From: Bacteroidia bacterium
GTDB taxonomy: Bacteria; Bacteroidota; Bacteroidia; Chitinophagales; Chitinophagaceae
Assembly: GCA_030429205.1 (NCBI GenBank)
Contig: JAUICZ010000002.1
Coordinates: 1 to 64,000, forward strand
Direction: 5' to 3'
DNA length: 64,000 nucleotides
A model generated the notes under the pieces. That model was not told the DNA's origin, searched no databases, and saw nothing but the letters and a program-made list of their open reading frames with translations. Shown one piece after another: positions 60,472-64,000 of this stretch. The position numbers were made by a program, and so were the translations under genes. How positions within the stretch are numbered: position 1 is the first letter of the stretch; the number at the start of each line of letters is the position of its first letter.

Positions 60472-62811
60472 ATGAAATACAACAAGAGAAGGTTTGCAAT
60501 GGCTATGATGCTGCTACTGCTGCCGTTTGCAACATTTGCAATTCCCACAATGAAGAAGACAGGAACATCACAAACATTTTTCGGGGCTGTTATCTGCTCC
60601 GGCAACTCTTCTGATAACCCTAAGGTTACAGTAGAGGCATCGTTTAGCCCTGCGCTTACTATGTCTACCATTGCTACTATTGCTATTCAGAAAATAGACA
60701 TATCCGGTGGTAGCGTAACGGTGTTGAATGAAACAGATCTGGATGCAGATCTTGCCACATTAAGTTCCAGAAGTAGTGGCACATGGCACGTAAATATTGG
60801 CAACAGCAGTGTCAGTACAACGTTTGCCGATCACAACAACAGTCAGGTTACAAAATCTGTAAGCTTTACAAGACAAGATGCTCAGTACAGGTTTGTCATC
60901 AGGCACGGTACAACAGGTGGTAGTACGATTACCCAGTTCACTACCAATTTTCAACTAACAGAAGGTACAATACCATGGGTGCGCGTTACCAATATAAACG
61001 AGACAGTTGCCTGGACTATTGATGTAAAAGAACACAATGTTTTAAAGGGCTGTACCGGTAACGATCCAAGGTTGCGTGTAGACCCATTTACTTGTGGTAA
61101 CGATAATTTTCGTGTGAAGATAGGAGAGTATGATACCGATGCCGGCACATATGTTGGTACTCCGGTAGAAAAGGTGTTGTCATCATCAGAAATAACCGAC
61201 TTGCTATCTGGTACAGGTATACCAATTAATGGTTTTACAGATGGTAGCAACACGATTACATTGCAAACTGATAAGCATTACCATATCTCTGTAATATATC
61301 AGGGGCAGGGTACTTGGAAACCTGCTTACTCTGTGATGCATTATAAAGATGGTAATTTTGATCTGGCAATGAAAGATACTCCTTTCGATAGCGATGGGTA
61401 CGAGCCGTATAACAAATGGGACAACGACGTTTTTGCCAGCCCGGATCTTTGGAACAAAAAGTCTAACACGATGAACCCGACAAGCAAAACGCACGAGAAC
61501 CCAACCTTCGCATCGCTGCCCGGTAACCACAACCGTTTAATGGTAGAGATAAGGAATGTAGGGTGTAGTACCTCAACAGCAAACATACCTTTAAGATTGT
61601 TCTGGACAAGAGCACGTACAGATGAGTTGTGGAGCGATCATTGGATATATGATTTAGTAAATAATGCCGCCCCAGACCCTAATACGCCAAGCATTATGCG
61701 TCCGTTAGGTTCTGAAATTACAATTAGCGGAGCTACTCAAACCAACCCGTATAATACCAATAGTGATCCTTATTTAATACCTGCCATACCCGCAGGAAGC
61801 ACACACAAAATTAGTTTTGCTAATGGTGTACAATGGTTTCCGCCAGATCCTACTCATTACGACGCAAATAGTGGTTCTATTAGTAATGCCGGGCATCCGG
61901 TAATATGTTTATTGGCTAGGATCAACGAGCCTAACTCTTCCAGCGATCCTATCAGGTATGAGCCAACAGGAACAACAGACAAAATATTACCCTATGTAAA
62001 AGAAAATAATAATGTTGTCACCAGAAATACTATTGTTGTTTCAGAACCGGGTTTCTTCATTGCTGATCCCGGTGGAGGATGGAACTATGGTTTTGCAACA
62101 GTCATGGTTAATAACGACGGTGCTACTCCACGAACAGTAGATCTTTGCTTAGACCAACTTATAGACGCAGCTGGTGCAAGTACATTTATGGATCATGGTA
62201 ATATAGAAATAGGTACTACTACCAATTTGTATAATGCGTGGTTAACAGGAGGGTCGCAGGCTACTAACATGAGTATTGTTAGCCCTACACTGTTTTTAAT
62301 GACCAACGGCAGCCATGGTTGCTTAGAGAATATTACTGTTGCCCCGGGTAGTACAGAGCAGATTGGTGTTAGGTTTAACTATAATGGTACCAACCTTCCT
62401 CCTAGTCCGTTAGAGTATGTTTATCAGCTGAGTCAAACTACAGGTGCCGAGCCGTCTGTTGAGTATGGTAGTAATTCTGTATTTATTGCAGAAGTACCCA
62501 CGGTTACCCCTGCTCCCGGGCCGCAACCGGCATTTAGAACAACTGATATAGAGGATGCCTTAGCGGATGAAACATTAGGTATCTATCCAAACCCTTCGAG
62601 AGACTTTATAGACATTCTGTTGGGTGGTACATCTGTGAACGGTTCGCTGAATATTTATGATATGAATGGTAAACTAGTGCAGACCAAAGAGGCTGTAAAA
62701 GGTGCTGAAAAAGTTCGCATAAATATTTCGACACTGGCATCCGGTAACTATACTGTTGAGTTTACAGGATCAAACGGTACAATACACAGAGGCAGGTTCG
62801 TTAAAAAATAA
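60472..62811 (+). CDS. Secreted T9SS cargo protein, unknown function
   Basis: A 779-residue exported protein: signal MKYNKRRFAMAMMLLLLPFA, then long beta-rich regions with many Asn, Thr and Gly (repeats not obvious), and a T9SS type A sorting domain from LGIYPNPSRDFIDILL to GRFVKK. Cysteines occur in isolated pairs (CTGNDPR and CGNDNF; CSTSTA). No catalytic motif is seen; adhesion or surface structure is a guess. A good terminator follows. The next kilobase holds no protein gene. Confidence 0.8.
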   Translation: MKYNKRRFAMAMMLLLLPFATFAIPTMKKTGTSQTFFGAVICSGNSSDNPKVTVEASFSPALTMSTIATIAIQKIDISGGSVTVLNETDLDADLATLSSRSSGTWHVNIGNSSVSTTFADHNNSQVTKSVSFTRQDAQYRFVIRHGTTGGSTITQFTTNFQLTEGTIPWVRVTNINETVAWTIDVKEHNVLKGCTGNDPRLRVDPFTCGNDNFRVKIGEYDTDAGTYVGTPVEKVLSSSEITDLLSGTGIPINGFTDGSNTITLQTDKHYHISVIYQGQGTWKPAYSVMHYKDGNFDLAMKDTPFDSDGYEPYNKWDNDVFASPDLWNKKSNTMNPTSKTHENPTFASLPGNHNRLMVEIRNVGCSTSTANIPLRLFWTRARTDELWSDHWIYDLVNNAAPDPNTPSIMRPLGSEITISGATQTNPYNTNSDPYLIPAIPAGSTHKISFANGVQWFPPDPTHYDANSGSISNAGHPVICLLARINEPNSSSDPIRYEPTGTTDKILPYVKENNNVVTRNTIVVSEPGFFIADPGGGWNYGFATVMVNNDGATPRTVDLCLDQLIDAAGASTFMDHGNIEIGTTTNLYNAWLTGGSQATNMSIVSPTLFLMTNGSHGCLENITVAPGSTEQIGVRFNYNGTNLPPSPLEYVYQLSQTTGAEPSVEYGSNSVFIAEVPTVTPAPGPQPAFRTTDIEDALADETLGIYPNPSRDFIDILLGGTSVNGSLNIYDMNGKLVQTKEAVKGAEKVRINISTLASGNYTVEFTGSNGTIHRGRFVKK

Positions 62812-62836
62812 CAGACTATACCTTACACACATACAC

Positions 62837-62865
62837 AAACCCCTTTGTTTATTGCAGAGGGGTTT
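62837..62865 (+). terminator. Terminator of the T9SS cargo gene
   Basis: AAACCCCT pairs perfectly with AGGGGTTT (loop of 13 bases), followed by a T-rich run. Confidence 0.85.
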
Positions 62866-62891
62866 CTTTTTTGTTATGCGTTTTGCAGTAT

Positions 62892-62909
62892 TGTAGAATA
62901 AATACTACA
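62892..62909. promoter_or_regulatory. Palindrome TGTAG-N8-CTACA, copy 1
   Basis: TGTAGAATAAATACTACA. The same form is at 63129-63146 and, with one mismatch, at 63347-63364. It sits ahead of the first small-RNA-like unit and is a candidate operator. Confidence 0.5.
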
Positions 62910-62975
62910 TGCATTTCTTTAAAACATGACAATCGTCATAAAAAGAGGTGGGTACACTTACTATTTTTGAAGTCC

Positions 62976-63103
62976 GATGAACACGTGCTCGAGACATGAA
63001 TCAGGAAGATCACCTGGTACGATTTCTCGAACAAAACAAACAACCACATGTAAGGATAGAGCATGTAATTGAAAAGTCTCCCTCCAAATAAGGGAGGCTT
63101 TTT
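62976..63103 (+). ncRNA. Putative small RNA A
   Basis: A terminator-ended unit. TATTTTTG at 62962-62969 is a -7 box match, giving a start near 62976. GAGAC (62991-62995) can pair with GTCTC (63076-63080). The core TCTCGAACAAAACAAACAA is at 63025-63043. The terminator stem is 63076-63098 (CTCCCT/AGGGAG plus two pairs) with a T run. Unit B repeats the plan. A 31-codon frame at 62996 is not kept in B, so RNA is favoured over a peptide. Confidence 0.55.
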
Positions 63104-63128
63104 CTTATGTAGTTTTAGTCAGATGTCT

Positions 63129-63146
63129 TGTAGAATTAATACTACA
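63129..63146. promoter_or_regulatory. Palindrome TGTAG-N8-CTACA, copy 2
   Basis: TGTAGAATTAATACTACA, 73 bases before the conserved GAGAC of unit B. Differs from copy 1 only in the centre. Confidence 0.5.
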
Positions 63147-63207
63147 GGATTTTCGATTAAAATCTTATTTAAAAGCAGCTGGATCTTTGAAAACTTTTAT
63201 ATAATTG

Positions 63208-63331
63208 TATCAACATTTGAGACATAAGTCCGGAAGATCGTGGGTACTATTCTCGAACAAAACAAACAAGTACATGTAGGAAAGAACATCGTACTGAAAG
63301 AGTCTCCCTTCTACAAAAGGGAGGCTTTTTT
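63208..63331 (+). ncRNA. Putative small RNA B (paralogue of A)
   Basis: GAGAC at 63219-63223, the identical 19-base core at 63251-63269, GTCTC at 63302-63306 and a terminator stem CTCCCTT/AAGGGAG (63304-63323) with six T. The distance from core to GTCTC equals that of A; between GAGAC and core it is two bases shorter. The 5' end is not clear, as no full promoter is visible. Confidence 0.55.
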
Positions 63332-63346
63332 GTTTTATAACTCATT

Positions 63347-63364
63347 GGTAGTAATAATTCTACA
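63347..63364. promoter_or_regulatory. Palindrome TGTAG-N8-CTACA, copy 3 (inverted)
   Basis: GGTAGTAATAATTCTACA; its complement TGTAGAATTATTACTACC matches copies 1 and 2 with one changed outer base. A half-site TTCTACA is at 63531. Confidence 0.45.
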
Positions 63365-63499
63365 CGGTTGCTAGCTAAATATAGCTACGTTTACTCGGCA
63401 GAGTAAATTTAACCTAAGTGGCATTATTTGTTCTGTTGTGGTTAAATAAGCATGTGCCGAGAGGGCATATGGGAAGCCCCCAATCCTGGGGGCTTTTTT
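63365..63499 (+). ncRNA. Terminator-ended unit C, no protein frame
   Basis: Contains small hairpins (TGCC-GAGA-GGCA-type near 63455) and a strong terminator AAGCCCCCA/TGGGGGCTT (63474-63495) with a T run. It does not share the core of A and B, but stands behind the same palindrome type. A transcript here is inferred from the terminator alone. Confidence 0.4.
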
Positions 63500-63812
63500 A
63501 TTACTCATTTAGTGATCAATATTGAAGTAATTCTACAAGCGGTAGACGGTAATATGTATATACTTGTTATGGGTTACCCCAATAGCGAAAGGTGCTTTCA
63601 GGGTGAGTATTTCATACAGGGTACTGATGTCTAATTGCTACTTGCACATTATGCTAGGAAAGTTCAGCTATTTTTTACCTCCCTCAGACGAGGGAGGCCT
63701 TATTTTCTGTAACAAAGGCCTGAATAGTATTACAAACATTCCCGGTAGTTAATACAGTGGCAGTTAATCCCATATATTTTTTTACATTAGTATAGTATAC
63801 CCGATGTGAAAA
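63500..63812 (+). other. Unit D: gene-free stretch with a terminator-like hairpin
   Basis: CCTCCCTC and GAGGGAGG (63679-63698) pair perfectly around AGAC, but the T run behind is weak. A TGTAG half-site is at 63531. Sequence between 63540 and 63660 is unlike A, B and C. It lies 115 bases before the last gene and could be its leader or a fourth small RNA. Confidence 0.4.
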
Positions 63813-64000
63813 ATGTTATTACGTAAGGCTAAATATATATTAAGCTGCCTGTTGATGTGCAGTGTATGGTTTGCATATCCTGCAAAGGCTCAGTCGGGTG
63901 ATAAGCCGATATACATTGTAGATGATCATTCAGTTGAAACGAGTGATCAGCAAGCACATAAACCCGTGTACATTGGCAAAGACTCTTTGACGGTCTACAT
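63813..64000 (+). CDS. Partial secreted protein, 5' end
   Basis: An open frame from ATG 63813 to the window edge (62 codons). It begins with a signal peptide: MLLRKAKYILSCLLMCSVWF then AYPAKAQ as the likely cut site, and the mature part DKPIYIVDDHSVETSDQQ, KPVYIGKDSLTVY shows a short imperfect repeat of PIYI/PVYI. The family cannot be judged from this fragment. Confidence 0.65.
   Translation, partial: MLLRKAKYILSCLLMCSVWFAYPAKAQSGDKPIYIVDDHSVETSDQQAHKPVYIGKDSLTVY

Follow-up and report, generated by a model that had tools for sequence, protein, structure and literature searches.

What might a Chitinophagaceae genome of 3.64 Mb be doing with a kilobase of DNA in which no gene can be seen? The window, by which we mean the whole stretch of DNA analysed here, covers 64,000 nt (bases 1-64000 of contig C8), and no gene was seen within its positions 62812-63812. 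On one side lies the gene of a secreted protein (60472-62811), whose product carries a Por_Secre_tail, the type IX sorting tail, in a domain scan; on the other, a cyclase gene starting at 63813 gives a Guanylate_cyc match, with a 7TM domain below its cut-off. The T9SS is described as confined to Bacteroidota (excerpt of PMC5005315). The original prediction placed two tandem paralogous small RNAs, A and B, in this interval, and that pair is borne out, but the picture was incomplete: two further units, C and D, and four palindromes had been missed. The interval holds an array of four tandem units, A to D, with a palindrome upstream of every one. This four-unit array with its common palindrome is the strongest clue to function, and the best reading of it is a lineage-specific cluster of sibling sRNAs. 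Reasoning from sequence, we give an even chance to the fuller proposal that A to D encode small regulatory RNAs and that a LuxR-type response regulator, itself autoregulated, probably activates their transcription.

Units A and B are the clearest members of the array. Sequence, fold and a -7 box together delimit A as a predicted sRNA of ~130 nt (62974..63103, plus strand) and B as one of ~120 nt (63212..63331, plus strand); the duplicated stretches first recognised, 62991-63103 and 63219-63331, stand in coordinates, order and sequence. Their paralogy is confirmed by a DNA search of their own genome, in which they align at 80% identity over 112 bases (E 3.1e-18). The identical core is there too, and at 20 nt (63024-63043 in A, 63250-63269 in B) it is one base longer than the 19 originally counted; the exact 19-mer occurs only twice in the genome. 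The distance from GAGAC to the core differs by two bases, as had been noted (34 in A, 32 in B). Palindrome, -7 box, GAGAC, core and terminator are all repeated from A to B at a spacing of 226-238 bases, and because the upstream region is duplicated along with the rest, the pair appears to have arisen when an entire transcription unit was duplicated in tandem. Could the units instead be genes for small proteins? Unit A contains a 31-codon ATG frame (62996-63088) and unit B a GTG frame that shares LEQNKQ with it, both of them open across the core. Against this, the ATG of A reads ATA in B, upstream of the core the two frames are out of register by the two-base difference in length, identity within the core extends to third codon positions, and a Pfam search at E 10 matches neither frame, all of which upholds the earlier claim that protein coding is not what is conserved and makes the small-protein explanation very improbable.

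The predicted folds set A and B apart from random sequence of their own composition and redraw their presumed architecture. Each folds better than all 200 of its shuffles (z -5.0 for A, -4.3 for B), and each ends, as anticipated, in a strong intrinsic terminator found by fold and terminator scan alike (hairpins at 63072..63102 and 63296..63331, plus strand as for all features of the two units). The pairing of GAGAC with GTCTC that had been proposed does not occur in the predictions, where its ensemble probability is 0.0 in both units and a fold constrained to contain it is less stable by 10.6 kcal/mol for A and by 15.0 for B. The partner of GAGA is the TCTC within the core, and together they close a 5' hairpin with pair probabilities of 0.96-1.0 in both units: hairpin 1 (TCGAGA ... 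TCTCGA, 62989..63030) in A, and its counterpart (TTTGAGA ... TCTCGAA, 63216..63257) in B. The core is thus not wholly unpaired, since its TCTCGA belongs to hairpin 1, but most of the 14-base linker that follows is indeed predicted to be exposed. This linker, AACAAAACAAACAA, consists of A and C only and is identical in the two units (63030..63043 and 63256..63269). In A, nine of its 14 bases are unpaired at a probability of at least 0.89, the first lying in hairpin 1 and four being about half paired; in B, 11 of 14 are unpaired at that level, with both ends paired and the second and last bases mostly paired. Hairpin 2 follows (in A, ACATGT / GCATGT with loop AAGGATAGA, 63046..63066; in B, GTACATGT / ACATcGTAC with loop AGGAAAGA, 63270..63294), and each unit has one such loop holding GGA. 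Both hairpin 2 and the terminator are preserved between A and B in shifted registers. Four bases past the linker stands an ATG followed by an immediate stop, ATGTAA in A and ATGTAG in B (63044-63053 and 63270-63279). The idea of a duplicated regulatory RNA with an exposed A/C-rich stretch is therefore supported by prediction, shorn of the GAGAC/GTCTC pairing and of an entirely single-stranded core. By the same prediction A and B each possess their own promoter, an intrinsic terminator and no conserved ORF, and they are probably duplicated, regulatory, non-coding RNAs. Their family was not recognised originally, and searching the whole window against a copy of Rfam 15 (4227 families) likewise gives no match at or above the gathering cut-off; the 23 matches reported for the kilobase all lie below cut-off.

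The array continues beyond B. Unit C is a predicted terminated RNA on the plus strand (63380..63498) with an uncertain 5' end, recognised by its fold, which is unusually stable (z -5.1 over 121 nt, -3.4 over 70 nt); its terminator hairpin (63472-63497, plus strand) appears in folds only and is absent from the terminator-scan list. Unit D, also a predicted terminated RNA (63571..63703, plus strand), is marked by terminator scan, fold and -7 box; its terminator (63678-63697, plus strand) comes from the scan, and its fold is ordinary (z only -1.3). A simple scan of 62700-64000 scores seven positions as terminator-like, where shuffles average 0.5. Three are the ends of A, B and D; the others are a second, overlapping site in B, a minus-strand site in A, the palindrome of B itself and the terminus of the upstream gene.

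A palindrome resembling GTAGAATWAATTCTAC precedes each unit, with one mismatch at A, one at B, two at C and three at D. That of A (TTGTAGAATAAATACTACAT, 62891..62910) was found by motif scan and, with the orthologue footprint described below, is a putative response-regulator site. Motif scans located the others: that of B (TTGTAGAATTAATACTACAG, 63128..63147), which is also scored as a weak terminator-like site; that of C (63346..63365), with two mismatches in a 16-bp core, GTAGTAATAATTCTAC; and the degenerate site of D (ATATTGAAGTAATTCTACAA, 63519..63538), with three mismatches in 16. Six sites with at most three mismatches occur in the window, four of them in the array. When the kilobase was shuffled 1000 times with its dinucleotides preserved, the count seen here was never reached at one, two, three or four mismatches, and at five it was reached in 1% of shuffles. 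Of the four palindromes that of D is the weakest: 4.2% of shuffles contain one or more sites of that quality, and taken alone it could be chance. Across the organism's own genome the 16-bp degenerate motif shows no enrichment (six occurrences, seven for the reversed control), which leaves the local cluster and the footprint as the evidence that carries weight. The 20-mer has 59 forward matches and its reversed control eight in 20 chosen genomes, which are mostly regulator-bearing rather than a random sample. The consensus itself derives in part from sites that then entered the scoring, which somewhat inflates the contrast with controls. Three spellings of the palindrome do not occur in the literature searched. 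Several matches were set aside as sites within ORFs, and one (G195:C127) as resembling, by eye, the terminator hairpin of an EF-Ts-like gene. The best match in the organism's own genome (one mismatch in 20) falls between convergent genes (L011 1499-1790, G000:C8:243199), in a region that also holds, by eye, three repeat copies of the TGTAACAG..GTTACAAACG type and in which no sense terminator was seen.

Between palindrome and RNA, three of the four units carry a recognisable promoter element. In Flavobacterium psychrophilum a -7 box of the form TAnnTTTG occupies positions -12 to -5 (excerpt of PMC9723704). Unit A has such a box, TATTTTTG, on the plus strand at 62962..62969, 69 bp from the palindrome centre, with a predicted start at ~62974; unit B has one with a single mismatch, TATAATTG, at 63200..63207 (plus strand), 70 bp from its palindrome centre, with a predicted start at ~63212. 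The box of D, TATACTTG, also with one mismatch (63559-63566, plus strand), is only 38 bp from its palindrome centre, and the 31-bp difference in spacing would amount to roughly three helical turns. No TAnnTTTG box was found before unit C. Of ten palindromes at regulator genes, just three are accompanied by the box (one at 127, one at 38, and one at both 53 and 69), and no common palindrome-to-box spacing emerges.

Which protein might read these palindromes? The genome encodes a response regulator (G000:C4:731573-732187) with receiver and LuxR-type DNA-binding domains (PF00072, PF00196) and an adjoining histidine kinase gene. A genome of the same genus, G195, has such a regulator beside a kinase gene too, and the palindrome recurs upstream of the regulator gene in both. 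In a set of 14 orthologues, one per genome (13 at no less than 48% identity from the family search, together with that of G195, which matches in two pieces at 54% and 45% identity), 11 have the palindrome at five mismatches or fewer within 160 bp upstream, against one of 70 control ORFs called mechanically in the organism's own genome (Fisher 2e-10); at three mismatches or fewer the figures are eight of 14 and none of 70. Two genomes, G126 and G166, have second regulator copies without the site (nine and six mismatches), and when these are added the count becomes 11 of 16 against 1 of 70 (Fisher 2e-9). The family search itself matched 49 of 195 genomes at 1e-25, at any identity, and more distant regulators with loci in that search have the palindrome in one case out of 17. 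In the three single-copy misses (G126, G019 and G025) the regulator sits behind a large ORF whose own promoter region has the site, with one or two mismatches. A PorP/SprF gene was confirmed beside this arrangement in G126, and in G091 the large protein combines IgGFc-binding and PKD domains with a T9SS type B tail and is divergent from a second T9SS type B protein. Five loci from five other genomes (L119, L120, L121, L122 and L123) have a large ORF before the regulator, a second large ORF divergent from it and the palindrome between them; T9SS domains were confirmed in L119 and PorP/SprF in L121.

The same site thus stands, by its footprint, both before the RNA units and before the regulator's own gene, as a shared operator would, and we regard this regulator as the likely, though not proven, cognate of the palindrome. 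It is not a certain one, because similar palindromes lie near other response-regulator-like genes of relatives, a pattern seen by eye that would suit an alternative in which the sRNAs are real but some other LuxR-type regulator or transcription factor, perhaps a repressor, occupies the palindromes. Such an alternative is unlikely given how tight the footprint is for one orthologue group and how rare at distant regulators. Palindromes of the form GTAG-N8-CTAC were noted by eye near response-regulator-like or receiver-only genes at L132 1519, L134 1490, L209 709 and 1497, and L210 1534, suggesting that sites of this kind may be a common operator style of this regulator class in the family.

Relatives of the RNAs themselves proved hard to find. 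A covariance model (R1) searched across 394 family genomes yielded no accepted relative of A or B outside their own genome: A and B score 113 and 108 bits and the next best match 33 bits (E 0.001 for one genome), with matches at E up to 1 in 73 genomes, their own included. The 19 other matches with loci given were inspected and none accepted, 18 showing no terminator in the scan, 17 overlapping an ORF of at least 60 codons (one of them by a single base) and none having a palindrome; the one with a terminator, at L150, had no clear core. The model was built from two sequences and run with stricter filters, and distant relatives could escape it. A DNA search of 195 family genomes gave two short matches outside the organism's own genome (27 and 19 bp), taken as chance, and a search of four genomes of the genus with the whole kilobase as query returned only short matches, one of them the B palindrome in G195. 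That genome (65% complete) has the regulator, and the covariance model finds nothing in it; in its congeners G050 and G136 neither the regulator (at 1e-25) nor the sRNAs are matched, with no palindrome in the former and one, at three mismatches, in the latter. The exact core occurs in seven stretches of an 84,980-species collection, which may omit records near this genome, with one match in each, all taken as chance; no GAGAC-core-terminator unit was seen in the 60 bases upstream and 101 downstream of them. Viral contigs gave no core match. With the cyclase gene as a synteny anchor, matched in 12 of 29 genomes including its own, four loci were read (one an own paralogue) without an array being found, and the palindrome loci read in relatives stand before or inside protein genes, with no sRNA array seen. 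Searches of the literature returned no match for Chitinophagaceae sRNAs, and no title there on regulators with sRNAs in Bacteroidetes concerns this system.

So narrow a distribution would fit a reading of A and B as decaying or non-functional tandem duplicates whose likeness is simply left over from a recent duplication. The pattern of change argues otherwise. With 63 of 93 alignment columns identical, an identical run of 20 nt is reached in only 0.38% of column shuffles (p 0.0038), so the core has been preserved more than evenly scattered changes would predict, and hairpin 2 and the terminator have survived their change of register. Decay is accordingly an improbable account of the pair.

If the array is, as we prefer, a set of regulated sRNA genes, the regulator, once phosphorylated, would bind the four palindromes and turn on the RNAs together with its own gene; at A and B the palindrome would lie ~74 bp, and at D 42 bp, before a start of the Bacteroidota type. 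More tentatively, A and B might be trans-acting RNAs that use the A/C-only linker separating hairpins 1 and 2, most likely for base pairing with U/G-rich stretches of mRNA, because a sequence of A and C alone does not fold on itself and has no G-U pairs open to it. Such RNAs act most commonly by base pairing. The targets may be mRNAs of surface or exported proteins, since the palindrome precedes secreted-adhesin genes in some relatives. Searches for individual targets named none. The genome has 43 complements of the linker with at most one mismatch, counting A and B, where the control has 37, and among the 30 loci given (A, B, one unreadable and 27 others) the 27 readable ones contain no convincing sense complement within 90 nt before an ATG frame. 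A duplex screen of 84 start regions from the window and three loci, a small part of the genome and too small a sample for naming targets, gave a best value of -10.2 kcal/mol (mean -3.8, sd 2.2), with -4.8 for the regulator's own leader, -2.8 for the cyclase and -5.9 for the upstream gene.

The RNA-binding proteins that might serve such RNAs were also sought. Hfq has no match in this genome and none over cut-off in 19 genomes (one weak match below threshold), while five of 14 control genomes matched; CsrA likewise has no match here and none over cut-off in 29 relatives, five of which have weak sub-threshold matches (best E 0.004), and it matched in three of 14 control genomes. The latter result bears directly on the notion that A and B are sponges of the CsrB/RsmY type, titrating CsrA through the loop GGA of hairpin 2. 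A layout like that of GacA-Rsm speaks for it, yet we consider it scarcely credible, as it is largely refuted by the missing CsrA.

A different kind of titration would make A and B decoys, in which the linker imitates the A/C-rich 5' leaders of certain mRNAs and draws off their binding partner, an RNA-binding protein or the 30S subunit. The linker 14-mer does occur, exactly or with one mismatch, directly before genes of this genome, for instance before three neighbouring genes (G000:C4:1822970-1824849) with, by eye, signal-peptide-like starts, and in both A and B an ATG with an immediate stop comes 4 nt behind it. Yet that ATG sits in the stem of hairpin 2 in both folds, and position -3 is C or T, where A is favoured before starts in F. 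johnsoniae (excerpt of PMC6847099); decoys are thus an improbable explanation. The three genes in question (L197 6970-9440, G000:C4:1822970-1825440) have long A/C-rich stretches containing AACAAAACAA before their starts, and the middle protein has no Pfam match. The setting is one in which the phylum's mRNAs lack Shine-Dalgarno sequences and neither Hfq nor CsrA was found. As a long shot, then, the RNAs could be response-regulator-driven leader mimics, an A/C-rich leader with a start-stop (ATG-TAA/TAG) that would compete for a leader-binding factor or for ribosomes and in this way regulate mRNAs with such leaders.

Read as sibling sRNAs under a two-component system, the array has several known counterparts. 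The likeness to GacA-RsmX/Y/Z and UvrY-CsrB/C of gammaproteobacteria lies in a LuxR-type response regulator and an upstream palindrome before several sRNA genes; here, however, no CsrA was found, the RNA sequence is different, the genes form a tandem array and the regulator, whose best NCBIfam model is UvrY/SirA/GacA, scores 75 bits, far below the cut-off of 280. The palindrome here differs from the Gac box, and Rsm RNAs have GGA in loops, as A and B do. The Cia-dependent sRNAs and Qrr resemble the array as sibling sRNAs under one signalling system, and belong to other phyla, with other regulator types and sequences than A-D. In GacA-Rsm, a palindromic upstream activating site stands before several sRNA genes (excerpt of PMC2375449). 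FopS / GibS of Bacteroides thetaiotaomicron share with the present units paralogous sRNAs, a conserved single-stranded stretch and an intrinsic terminator (excerpt of PMC11697453), and to judge from T9SS content their host and that of A and B are probably of the same phylum. FopS is described as having 14 members, a seed in a single-stranded 5' stretch and canonical promoters, and the FopS RNAs of Bacteroides as bound by the RRM protein RbpB; the Cia-dependent sRNAs of Streptococcus and Qrr of Vibrio are named there as well (excerpt of PMC11697453). FimS/FimR of Porphyromonas gingivalis is a two-component system for surface structures (excerpt of PMC1974823). The best NCBIfam model of the adjoining kinase is FimS, at 107 bits far below its cut-off of 600. 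For FimS/FimR we know of no sRNA array.

Sibling sRNAs controlled by two-component systems are already known; the present family is without an Rfam 15 match at cut-off, and its mode of action is possibly unusual. If the link between regulator and array holds, this would be a concrete candidate for a two-component system outside the proteobacteria that, like GacA, exerts much of its effect by way of several sibling sRNAs, in a genome where the searches found neither Hfq nor CsrA. The palindrome offers a handle on the whole scheme, for the operator can be read in related genera, and in some of them it precedes genes of secreted T9SS proteins.
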